From an uncultured Poribacteria bacterium (lineage in GTDB: Bacteria > Poribacteria > WGA-4E > WGA-3G), in contig OX639992.1 of assembly GCA_951828515.1 (NCBI GenBank), positions 806,001-870,000 of the forward strand: a stretch of 64,000 bases of DNA, in the 5' to 3' direction. The notes below the pieces were generated by a model. It was not told the DNA's origin. It did no database searches and saw only the letters and a list, made by a program, of their open reading frames with translations. The position numbers and the translations under genes were made by a program. How positions within the stretch are numbered: position 1 is the first letter of the stretch; each line of letters starts with the position of its first letter. Positions 30,413-33,004 of the stretch are shown piece by piece.

Positions 30413-32002
30413 CTATCTGCGTGAGAGGTAAGGGACGAGTCCCTCAAGTACTTGCGGTAGGTCATCGCAAGGGACATTCTCCAATAATTTCGGCGCGATT
30501 TTCGGATTTGCCCCGGCATCTCCCTTCAGAAATACGTCCACTGCGTCAGTGACAACACCATCAATCTTAACTTTCTTGCCCAAGAGTCCAATATCTGCGG
30601 CGGCGTGGTTGCCACATCCGTTTGGACACCCCGACCAGTGTATCGTGAGCGGTTCGGTATTGCCGAGTTTTGTTTCCAAATGTCGAATCGCTTCCATGGC
30701 GCGTTCTTTAGTTTCAATAAGCGAGAAGTGACAGTAGTCGATGCCAGTGCAACTTACCATGCCGCGCATGACTTCCGAGGGGTCATAGCGGAGTTCCTGT
30801 AGGAGCGGTTCTGCGGTTAAGTCACCTATTTTTGCGTCTGGCACGTTGGTAATAATCAAATTCTGTCCTTGCGTGAGACGGATGTCGCCGTTGCCGTATT
30901 CGTCTGCGATCCGGGCGACTTCAAAGAGTTGCGTTGTCGTAATCCGTCCGACGGGAACAACAAGCCCGACGTAGTTGAGATCTGGCTGTTTCTGTGAGAA
31001 AATACCGGTGTGATCGGTCTTCTTCTTCCCTCGTGCATCTTTTCCCGCCGTCAGGAGCGGTTGCTTTCTGTGCCGCCGTCTTTCTAATTCTTTTCGGAAT
31101 TTTTCTACCCCCCAGTCTGCAATCAGGAAAGCAAGGCGAGATTTATTGCGGGCTGTCCGAGGTCCGTGATCTCGAAAAATTAGCGTAATATCCGCACACA
31201 AAACGGAGGCTTCTTTGGGAGTAATAAACACATCAAGGGGTTGCGCGAGCGTGTAACCACCGGAGCCCATTTTTCCACCAACTGCGACATTAAAGCCGTT
31301 AATTTCTTGACCATCGATCTCTTTTACTGCTGGTGTGAGCGCAATGTCCTGCGAGGCGGTATGCGTACAGTTATCCAAGCACCCTGTGATACCGACATTA
31401 AACTTCCGCGGAATATCGGTAAATTCTTTATTTCCGACAAAGAGTTTCGTGTATTCCCTACCGACATGTGAAGCATCAAAAAGCTCATTGGGGGTCAATC
31501 CTGCGACGGGACACCCGATCACACCACGAATGTTGTCGAAACCTGTTTGGAGTGAACCTAAGCCTACCTCTTCAAGCCGATTCCAGATATGTTGGACGTT
31601 CTCGATCGCGAAACCTCGAAGTTGAATCTGCTGACGCGTCGTGAGATCTACGAACCCTGGTCCGTGTGCCCCACTGATTTCAGCAATGGCACGGAACTGC
31701 TCGGAATTGCTAAAACCACTCGACATCCGGAGACGCATCATGAATGCACCGGGGGTTTGCTTGCGATAAAAGACACCTACCCACTTAAGGCGGTCGCGTT
31801 CGTTTGCGGGAATAGATTCCCAGCCGTCCCGAATATAGTTTGGGAGGTCATTGATGACCTCAAGCCCGTTTTTCTCTTGCTTCAGGGCTTCTGCCGCATT
31901 TATCTTCGACTTCCCTTTTTTTGAAGTCGTTGTGCTTTTCAAACTTGGGGCTGCCCGCACCCCTCGGCTTGCGCGGGTCGTTTTCTTTTTTGATTGGTTC
32001 AC
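30413..32002 (-). CDS. nirA: Ferredoxin-type nitrite reductase
   Basis: A 529-residue siroheme/4Fe-4S enzyme reducing nitrite to ammonium. It has two sulfite/nitrite reductase half-domains. Cluster and siroheme cysteines are in SCTGIDYC (about 413-420) and SGCPNGCGNH (about 457-466). DLTTRQQIQLRG is the substrate-side motif. A Lys-rich N-terminal extension of about 40 residues precedes the usual start. GTG 32002 is the start, with GAAGGAGA about 9-14 nt upstream. The gene sits directly behind an ANTAR-type leader with a terminator (32064-32145), so its transcription is probably controlled by attenuation. Confidence 0.93.
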   Translation of the reverse strand: MNQSKKKTTRASRGVRAAPSLKSTTTSKKGKSKINAAEALKQEKNGLEVINDLPNYIRDGWESIPANERDRLKWVGVFYRKQTPGAFMMRLRMSSGFSNSEQFRAIAEISGAHGPGFVDLTTRQQIQLRGFAIENVQHIWNRLEEVGLGSLQTGFDNIRGVIGCPVAGLTPNELFDASHVGREYTKLFVGNKEFTDIPRKFNVGITGCLDNCTHTASQDIALTPAVKEIDGQEINGFNVAVGGKMGSGGYTLAQPLDVFITPKEASVLCADITLIFRDHGPRTARNKSRLAFLIADWGVEKFRKELERRRHRKQPLLTAGKDARGKKKTDHTGIFSQKQPDLNYVGLVVPVGRITTTQLFEVARIADEYGNGDIRLTQGQNLIITNVPDAKIGDLTAEPLLQELRYDPSEVMRGMVSCTGIDYCHFSLIETKERAMEAIRHLETKLGNTEPLTIHWSGCPNGCGNHAAADIGLLGKKVKIDGVVTDAVDVFLKGDAGANPKIAPKLLENVPCDDLPQVLEGLVPYLSRR

Positions 32003-32063: not shown

Positions 32064-32111
32064 AAAAAAAGGCATCCATCAGCGAGCATAAGGCTCAGCC
32101 GAATGGACACC
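32064..32111 (-). terminator. Leader terminator upstream of nirA
   Basis: On the minus strand GGTGTCCATTCGGCTGAGC (32111-32093) pairs with GCTCGCTGATGGATGCC (32087-32071), with two single-T bulges and three G-T pairs. The loop is CTTAT and seven T follow (32070-32064). It lies 62 nt before nirA. The first eight bases of its 5' arm are also the 3' half of the hairpin at 32104-32119, so the two cannot form together. Confidence 0.85.
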
Positions 32112-32145
32112 TGTGTCCAGACCCAAACTGTGCCATCAAGGCACA
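32104..32145 (-). promoter_or_regulatory. ANTAR-type antiterminator hairpin pair in the nirA leader
   Basis: Two hairpins in transcription order: TGTGCC-TTGAT-GGCACA (32145-32129), then TGGAC-ACAGGT-GTCCA (32119-32104). The second has the six-base loop with A at position 1 and G at position 4 that ANTAR regulators recognise; the first has a five-base loop and fits less well. The adjacent upstream gene encodes an ANTAR protein. Binding should hold the second hairpin and prevent the terminator. Confidence 0.75.
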
Positions 32146-32200
32146 ATTTGTCTTTGCTTTACATTTCCACCTTTGGTTAGGTTTTCTCGTTATTCATCAC

Positions 32201-32289: not shown

Positions 32290-32374
32290 CCGTAGCGTGG
32301 AACACATCAGTCGTATGCTGAGAAAATAAAGACTTCCGATGTGCACACCTCGTTCACCTTTGAACACACTACTT

Positions 32375-33004
32375 CTATAATTTGTTTGTCAATGCTTCTG
32401 CGACAGAAAGTACGTCTTCTGAGATTTCTGCGAGCCGTTTTCTGCGATTCATCGCCATCTTTCGCAAAATTTGATAAGCTTGTGATTCGTTGCAGCCACG
32501 TTGCTGGGCAACCAATTCCTTCGCGCGTTCAATGATTTTGCGTTCGGCGAGATTTGTTTTCGTCTTTTCGAGTTCTTGTTGCAGTGCCTGAAATTCATAG
32601 AATCGGGCGACAGCTGCTTCGATAATGGTTTTAACGCGGGCACCCGTAAGTTTCCCAACAGCGTATGCGGAGACACCGGCACGTGTCGCTGCTTGAATCG
32701 TTTTTGACCGTTCATCCCGTGAAAACATAACTGTCGGACACGGATAACTCTCATGGAGAGATGCGATCCAACTGAGGATCGTCTGACCCGGGAAGTCAAC
32801 GCCAATCAATATGATGTCTGGCTTTATCTGTGTAACCTGTTCAGTCAAATCTTCCTGTAGGCGCACAGGGGCGGCAACCTTGTAACGGCGTGCTTCCAGA
32901 ATCTGGATTAGCGAATTTGCACGTTCCGGATTGTTATCGATGATTAAAATCTGTCCCTTCCCAGTAATGGGTGGGGATTCTGGCGTTAAAGTGCCTGCTT
33001 CCAT
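32375..33004 (-). CDS. nasT: AmiR/NasT-type ANTAR antitermination regulator
   Basis: A 209-residue protein with a receiver-like N-terminal domain (ILIIDNNPERANSLI ... PDIILIGVDFPG, with a possible phosphoacceptor Asp; VGKLTG holds the conserved Lys), a coiled-coil linker, and a C-terminal ANTAR RNA-binding domain (IERAKELVAQQRGCNESQAYQILRKMAMNRRKRLAEISEDVL). The acidic pocket has only one Asp, so phosphorylation is doubtful. NasT proteins are usually held by a nitrate sensor NasS; none is next to this gene. It is read in the same direction as, and just before, the nirA leader that carries its expected hairpin target. Confidence 0.9.
   Translation of the reverse strand: MEAGTLTPESPPITGKGQILIIDNNPERANSLIQILEARRYKVAAPVRLQEDLTEQVTQIKPDIILIGVDFPGQTILSWIASLHESYPCPTVMFSRDERSKTIQAATRAGVSAYAVGKLTGARVKTIIEAAVARFYEFQALQQELEKTKTNLAERKIIERAKELVAQQRGCNESQAYQILRKMAMNRRKRLAEISEDVLSVAEALTNKL

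Follow-up and report, generated by a model that had tools for sequence, protein, structure and literature searches.

What controls an apparent nitrate-assimilation operon whose leader lies directly behind a gene for an ANTAR protein? The question arises in a single-contig genome of 5.85 Mb (G000) of a sponge-associated bacterium from the Poribacteria, and we addressed it in a stretch of 64,000 nucleotides of that genome (the window), in which all features described below lie on the minus strand. The regulator gene (33004–32375) encodes a pseudo-receiver with a C-terminal ANTAR domain (Pfam ANTAR 62.1 bits, Response_reg 34.7 bits), in agreement with an earlier note on this DNA that had placed an ANTAR gene as upstream neighbour of the leader. 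The first gene under the proposed control, nirA (32002–30413), belongs to the ferredoxin-nitrite reductase family (Pfam NIR_SIR and NIR_SIR_ferr; best NCBIfam match ferredoxin--nitrite reductase at 543 bits, below its cut-off of 594). It is followed by genes for a NarK-like nitrate/nitrite transporter (30309–28957; TIGR00886 at 304.6 bits, slightly below the 311.7 cut-off) and a molybdopterin oxidoreductase (28765–26615, assigned by Pfam), which is probably the assimilatory nitrate reductase; since it matches NasC-type and formate dehydrogenase models, both below cut-off, this assignment leans partly on context. Just upstream of the leader, at 32293–32203, is an inverted repeat, AGTTGGGAGT...ACTCCCAACT, which branches into two inner hairpins (fold z -5.2). 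It is present too in a close relative (L015) and has a 96% identical copy between apparent tRNA genes at 4,210,912–4,211,002 of G000.

The leader contains two tandem hairpins followed by an intrinsic terminator. Hairpin 1, TGTGCC-TTGAT-GGCACA (32145–32129), extends in folds to a 10-bp stem, AAATTGTGCC-TTGAT-GGCACAGTTT (32149–32125). Hairpin 2, the putative antiterminator P2, TGGAC-ACAGGT-GTCCA (32119–32104), has a stem of 4–5 bp in the window and a hexaloop with A1 and G4 present. The terminator (32111–32071; outer pairs GGTGTCCAT/ATGGATGCC) is followed by a tract of seven T (32070–32064), 62 nt past which nirA starts with GTG at 32002, and the eight bases 32111–32104 are common to P2 and the terminator 5' arm. 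The positions that the earlier note had given for these features, including the distance to nirA, all proved correct when the sequence was re-read. Folding of 32160–32060 gave z = -4.9, with none of 200 shuffles folding equally well, and 32160–32100, which represents the antiterminator form without the terminator 3' arm, gave z = -3.8 with both hairpins present. An Rfam 15 search of the window and the leader returned no ANTAR-type family match, and a sigma-70 promoter scan of the leader gave no match on the minus strand.

A protein search of 85 genomes of the phylum identified 56 full-length orthologues of the ANTAR protein and one fragment, and leaders were excised as the sequence between the ANTAR stop codon and the next gene. 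In all 56 Poribacteria genomes with an intact orthologue the leader adjoins the ANTAR gene. P2 takes the form GGACAYAGGYGTCC in 55 leaders, corresponding to the pattern [AG]GACANNGGYGTC[CT], with the variant GACACTGGTGTC in the remaining one (L074). Both the four-pair P2 stem and nine outer terminator pairs are retained in 55 of the 55 leaders tabulated, and P2, as the earlier note had proposed, has the A1/G4 hexaloop and paired stem of an ANTAR-target hairpin. The outer P2 pair provides the critical test because its 3' base pairs in the terminator too. Here the triples formed by the P2 5' base, the shared base and the terminator 3' base were G-C-G (31 leaders), A-T-A (12), G-T-A (6) and A-T-G (6), all of which fit both structures. 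The tree requires three or more changes of the shared base, and both partners followed. That every triple fits both folds through these changes argues strongly that two structures compete for one strand, and hence that P2 and the terminator are mutually exclusive alternatives. The competition for the same bases claimed earlier is thus backed by compensatory changes on all three strands across the 55 leaders, and in the comparison with orthologous leaders P1 (described below), P2 and the terminator of relatives all passed the compensatory-change test. The terminator apex is enlarged by sequence specific to individual lineages, with as much as 61 nt separating the arms, in a subset of leaders (L014–L018, L021, L023, L028, L029, L032–L034, L070, L072 and L076) while the base of the hairpin is invariant; insertions thus seem to be tolerated by the leader, or attracted to it.

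Upstream of P2, 45 leaders (42 of them distinct) have a canonical first hairpin, P1, of the form CCCAACC-AAnGnT-GGTTTGGG, whose six-base loop has A1 and G4; by eye, TAGATAATAAC precedes P1 by about 10 nt in many relatives. The A1/G4 hexaloop and the two closing pairs are intact in 39 of the 42 distinct uninterrupted leaders. Double compensatory changes occur among these 42 in five pairs, four of the seven in P1 and one in P2, and amount to 30 cells for P1 and P2 together as compared with 8.8 in shuffles (0 of 500 reached 30); sliding the 3' partners lowered the paired cells from 92.6% to at most 57%. A covariance model of P1 plus P2 (R1) recovered the split site in the window at 43.1 bits (E 7e-9, aligned over 82 bases); among the genomes searched, it found the leader in each of the 54 that have a full-length ANTAR orthologue. 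Its other matches, at 22–24 bits, were in G023 and G046, which lack an orthologue, and at a second site in G081; those in genomes without the orthologue are weak and at chance level. The model gave one convincing ANTAR target in the window genome; the next-best site (G000 1,191,606; E 0.14) was rejected as a second target. The same genome has exactly one protein with an ANTAR domain, that encoded at 33004–32375. Comparison of leaders and genomes establishes, at the level of sequence, alternative structures on a shared strand and the pairing of one regulator with one target per genome, and from this pairing we infer that the regulator acts in cis on its neighbouring nitrate operon.

The locus varies across the phylum. 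In three leaders of genus g9 in family f3 (L090, L092 and L093) the ANTAR gene and leader precede a gene for a nirB-type nitrite reductase, not nirA, the assignment being read from the L093 ORF sequence. For two genomes of family f2 (G013 and G014; leaders L019 and L020) the ANTAR-nirA region falls inside the window's genus with support of 93, a placement which suggests that the nitrate operon has moved horizontally between Poribacteria. G029 has a truncated piece of the ANTAR gene (L096) but neither leader nor nirA, probably as a remnant of operon loss, and regulator and leader are both absent in several further genomes (G028, G034, G035, G039, G051 and G056).

Where, then, is P1 in the window? 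The earlier note had taken 32145–32129 as the first ANTAR hairpin, its loop slightly off the consensus, an assignment that had to be given up: a diverged P1 at this position was ruled out, given that the canonical P1 of relatives differs and the hairpin recurs about 30 times in the genome, and the stem also fails the compensatory-change test, with no double changes in it. What aligns with the intact P1 of the 42 distinct relatives is a relict at 32181–32167, CCTAACC-AAAGGT-GG, made up of the 5' arm CCTAACC (32181–32175), the hexaloop AAAGGT (32174–32169) and GG (32168–32167). Next come 39 extra bases, and after them TTTGGG (32127–32122), which on alignment to uninterrupted leaders (for example, L033 versus L029) is the leftover 3' strand of the ancestral P1. 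Between them lies a copy of a dispersed palindromic repeat (32166–32123), of which 32166–32128 is unique to the insert and TTTGG is common to the repeat and the host P1 3' strand. Matches to the repeat occur at about 30 other genomic places (best 91% over 44 nt, E 5e-11), at unrelated sites, with the common form AAATGTAAAGCAAAGACAAATTrTGCC...GGCAyAATTT; the 44-nt unit is present in nearly every genome of the window's genus and rare outside it. Many copies in the window genome (for example, L110–L120) lie between CTCC and ATTACGGGC, flanks that themselves seem to belong to a larger repeat.

P1 is interrupted in this way in ten leaders, those of the window, L007–L009, L014–L018 and L029. The insert is absent from sister and outgroup leaders, and one sister pair that is ~4% apart in coding DNA preserves both the uninterrupted (L033) and the interrupted (L029) state, so that the insertion is derived. 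Sequence comparison hence shows the 3' strand of the ancestral P1 to have received a copy of a dispersed palindromic repeat. Nine of the interrupted leaders form one weakly supported clade (support 59); L029 falls outside it, which implies that the repeat either inserted twice at this point or arrived in a transferred tract. The linker of L029 resembles that of the main interrupted clade, from which the L029 copy may have been acquired by recombination.

Does the repeat hairpin now do the work of P1? The relict P1 is intact in only 3 of the 10 interrupted leaders versus 39 of the 42 uninterrupted ones (Fisher p 9e-5, uncorrected for phylogeny), having changed A1 to G in L008 and L016–L018, lost the closing G-G in L007 and L009, and half lost it in L014. 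P2 and the terminator are intact in all ten. An apparent deletion in L007, which we infer to have fused relict CCAAAGG with repeat CAAAGG and removed what lay between, left the new hairpin and P2 in place. The repeat hairpin is closed by C-G pairs, as was the old P1, and its loop has a G at the ANTAR G4 position when the register is counted back from the closing GG. This G is present in all ten leader copies, in which other loop bases nearby vary, and in 3 of 22 dispersed copies alignable by eye; an exact-pattern count of loops genus-wide gave TTAAT 9 and TTGAT 1. In ANTAR targets studied elsewhere, G4 is the only base-specific contact and hairpin spacing is bounded (PMC8934654, PMC3369931), with linkers of 5–12 nt between the hairpins of eut leaders. 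The linker from the repeat hairpin to P2 is 6 nt with the 10-bp stem, and zero if the AGAC/GUCU extension predicted by RNAalifold forms. The loop is of five bases without A1, the sole exception being AUUGAU in L007, and mutation of A1 impaired EutV control (PMC3369931). Measured against the hexaloop with A1 and G4 on a stem of at least 3 bp that is usual for ANTAR targets, neither candidate first hairpin in the window qualifies: the loop of the repeat hairpin is one base short and lacks A1, and the relict, although it still carries the hexaloop sequence AAAGGT, has just two closing pairs. The stem of the repeat hairpin keeps 96% of pair cells in the ten leaders, which are few and related, and as its changes are only one-sided this conservation could reflect recent ancestry. 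On balance, we give even odds to the repeat hairpin now standing in for P1. That a mobile repeat was exapted as a recognition hairpin, with a loop that gained or retained the G recognized by ANTAR proteins, and that the regulator accepts a five-base loop without A1 and operates without NasS or phosphorylation, is a more tentative proposal. A literature search on ANTAR proteins with Poribacteria, or on repeats exapted in antiterminators, found nothing relevant.

The reading we favour, at a probability of about 80%, is that the leader is an ANTAR-type transcription-antitermination element of an assimilatory nitrate operon with a dedicated neighbouring ANTAR protein, and the comparison of leaders confirms the earlier note in this respect. 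By default, the terminator (32111–32071) would fold and transcription would stop before nirA. The active ANTAR protein, judging from what is known of its family, would bind the leader hairpins and hold P2 (32119–32104); because P2 takes up the eight bases with which the terminator arm begins, the terminator could then not form, and transcription would continue through nirA, narK and the nitrate reductase gene. In the window species and nine relatives, the repeat hairpin may serve as P1 in this scheme, with its G-bearing loop, C-G closing and 6-nt linker to P2.

Antitermination could instead persist with P1 dispensable, a dimer-bound P2 alone sufficing and the repeat being a passive passenger. 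The decay of the relict P1 in 7 of the 10 interrupted leaders beside a perfect P2 and terminator accords with this, as do the lack of double compensatory changes in the repeat hairpin and the binding of a single hexaloop by an ANTAR dimer in vitro (PMC8934654); EutV studies, however, required both hairpins (PMC3369931, PMC8934654), and the loop G is fixed in the ten leader copies but rare in dispersed ones, and we judge this alternative rather unlikely. It is improbable that the ancestral P1 still works through re-pairing of CCTAA (32181–32177) with TTGGG, the insert becoming a side hairpin of a three-way junction and the P1-P2 distance being preserved. By eye, the lower stem can pair as CCUAA/UUAGG in L008, L016 and L018 and as UCUAA/UUGGA in L009, and the window hexaloop AAAGGT is intact, but the best fold is more favourable by 5 kcal/mol, the window keeps just two closing pairs, L007 and L009 have lost the closing G-G and L014 part of it, and A1 is gone from L008 and L016–L018. 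A little less probable still is that the insertion broke regulation in the clade and left a drifting leader for fixed attenuation: the first hairpin is indeed disrupted, yet neither P2 nor the terminator has drifted in the ten interrupted leaders, all of which have an intact ANTAR gene (aligned protein at least 79% identical). Finally, that the terminator, which is of ordinary intrinsic form and sits downstream of the ANTAR stop codon, merely ends that gene beside a fortuitous hexaloop with no regulation is very hard to reconcile with two alternative folds covarying on the same strand in 55 relatives, a leader that tracks the ANTAR gene in all searched genomes, and its staying with nirB in family f3 where nirA is absent.

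An antitermination element of the proposed kind calls for an RNA-binding regulator, and the protein encoded at 33004–32375 aligns over almost its full length, receiver and ANTAR domain, with EutV (6wsh/6ww6) and Rv1626 (1s8n). The EutV residues that contact RNA are Lys143, Arg168, Met172, Asn173, Arg175 and Arg177 (PMC8934654). They correspond here to K156, R181, M185, N186, R188 and R190, which are invariant or nearly so except for N186, the position of which is Asp in 15 of the 56 orthologues. The phosphoacceptor Asp is absent in all 56, being replaced by Gly (Gly68 in the window), Cys or Asn, which makes control by phosphorylation unlikely. The protein has a response-receiver domain in place of a NIT sensor domain (in a genome-wide NIT-domain search the controls gave no match). 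The earlier note's observation that there is no adjacent NasS could be extended from the locus to the whole genome, in which nothing scored above the curated cut-off for NasS/NrtA-like proteins (PF13379; best 21.6 bits over 38 positions, with matches in 12 of 14 control genomes). Clear NrtA-like proteins of the phylum are in family f4, which is without an ANTAR orthologue, and weaker full-length matches in a few members of the window's genus are probably other binding proteins. In Paracoccus, expression is constitutive without NasS (PMC3795266), and hence, if the Poribacteria operon is regulated by nitrate, another partner or direct sensing by the pseudo-receiver would be needed.

Altogether, one regulator, one target and covariation on three strands make a strong comparative case that ANTAR antitermination extends to the Poribacteria. 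The regulator poses the question of how nitrate might be sensed if neither NasS nor a NIT domain nor a phosphorylatable receiver is available. L033 and L029 amount to a natural before/after experiment, the same switch without and with the repeat in its recognition hairpin, and bear on whether a riboregulator can take up a dispersed palindrome as one of its working parts as well as on the need of ANTAR proteins for A1 or for the first hexaloop.

The Poribacteria leader shares with the dual-hexaloop antiterminators of EutV/eut, NasR/nasF and AmiR/amiE (PMC3369931, PMC8934654) the tandem small hairpins, A1/G4 hexaloops, overlap of P2 with the terminator 5' arm and conserved ANTAR residues for RNA contact, but differs from them in the window's clade, where the first hairpin is split by a repeat and the hairpin that now occupies its site has a loop of five bases without A1. 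Like NasS-NasT of Paracoccus, Azotobacter and Bradyrhizobium (PMC3795266, PMC6759348), it pairs a receiver-plus-ANTAR protein encoded beside nitrate genes with a target in the operon leader, yet no NasS was found in the window genome. NasR of Klebsiella (PMC7496416) likewise acts on nitrate genes by antitermination through an ANTAR domain but has its own NIT sensor domain, in contrast to the pseudo-receiver of the Poribacteria protein. The domain order is that of EutV and Rv1626 (6wsh, 1s8n), unlike which the 56 Poribacteria orthologues all lack the phosphoacceptor Asp. The repeat, for its part, is short, palindromic, in ~30 copies and genus-wide, as are REP- or MITE-like bacterial repeats, and stands apart from these in general in that its leader copy sits inside the stem of a functional RNA.
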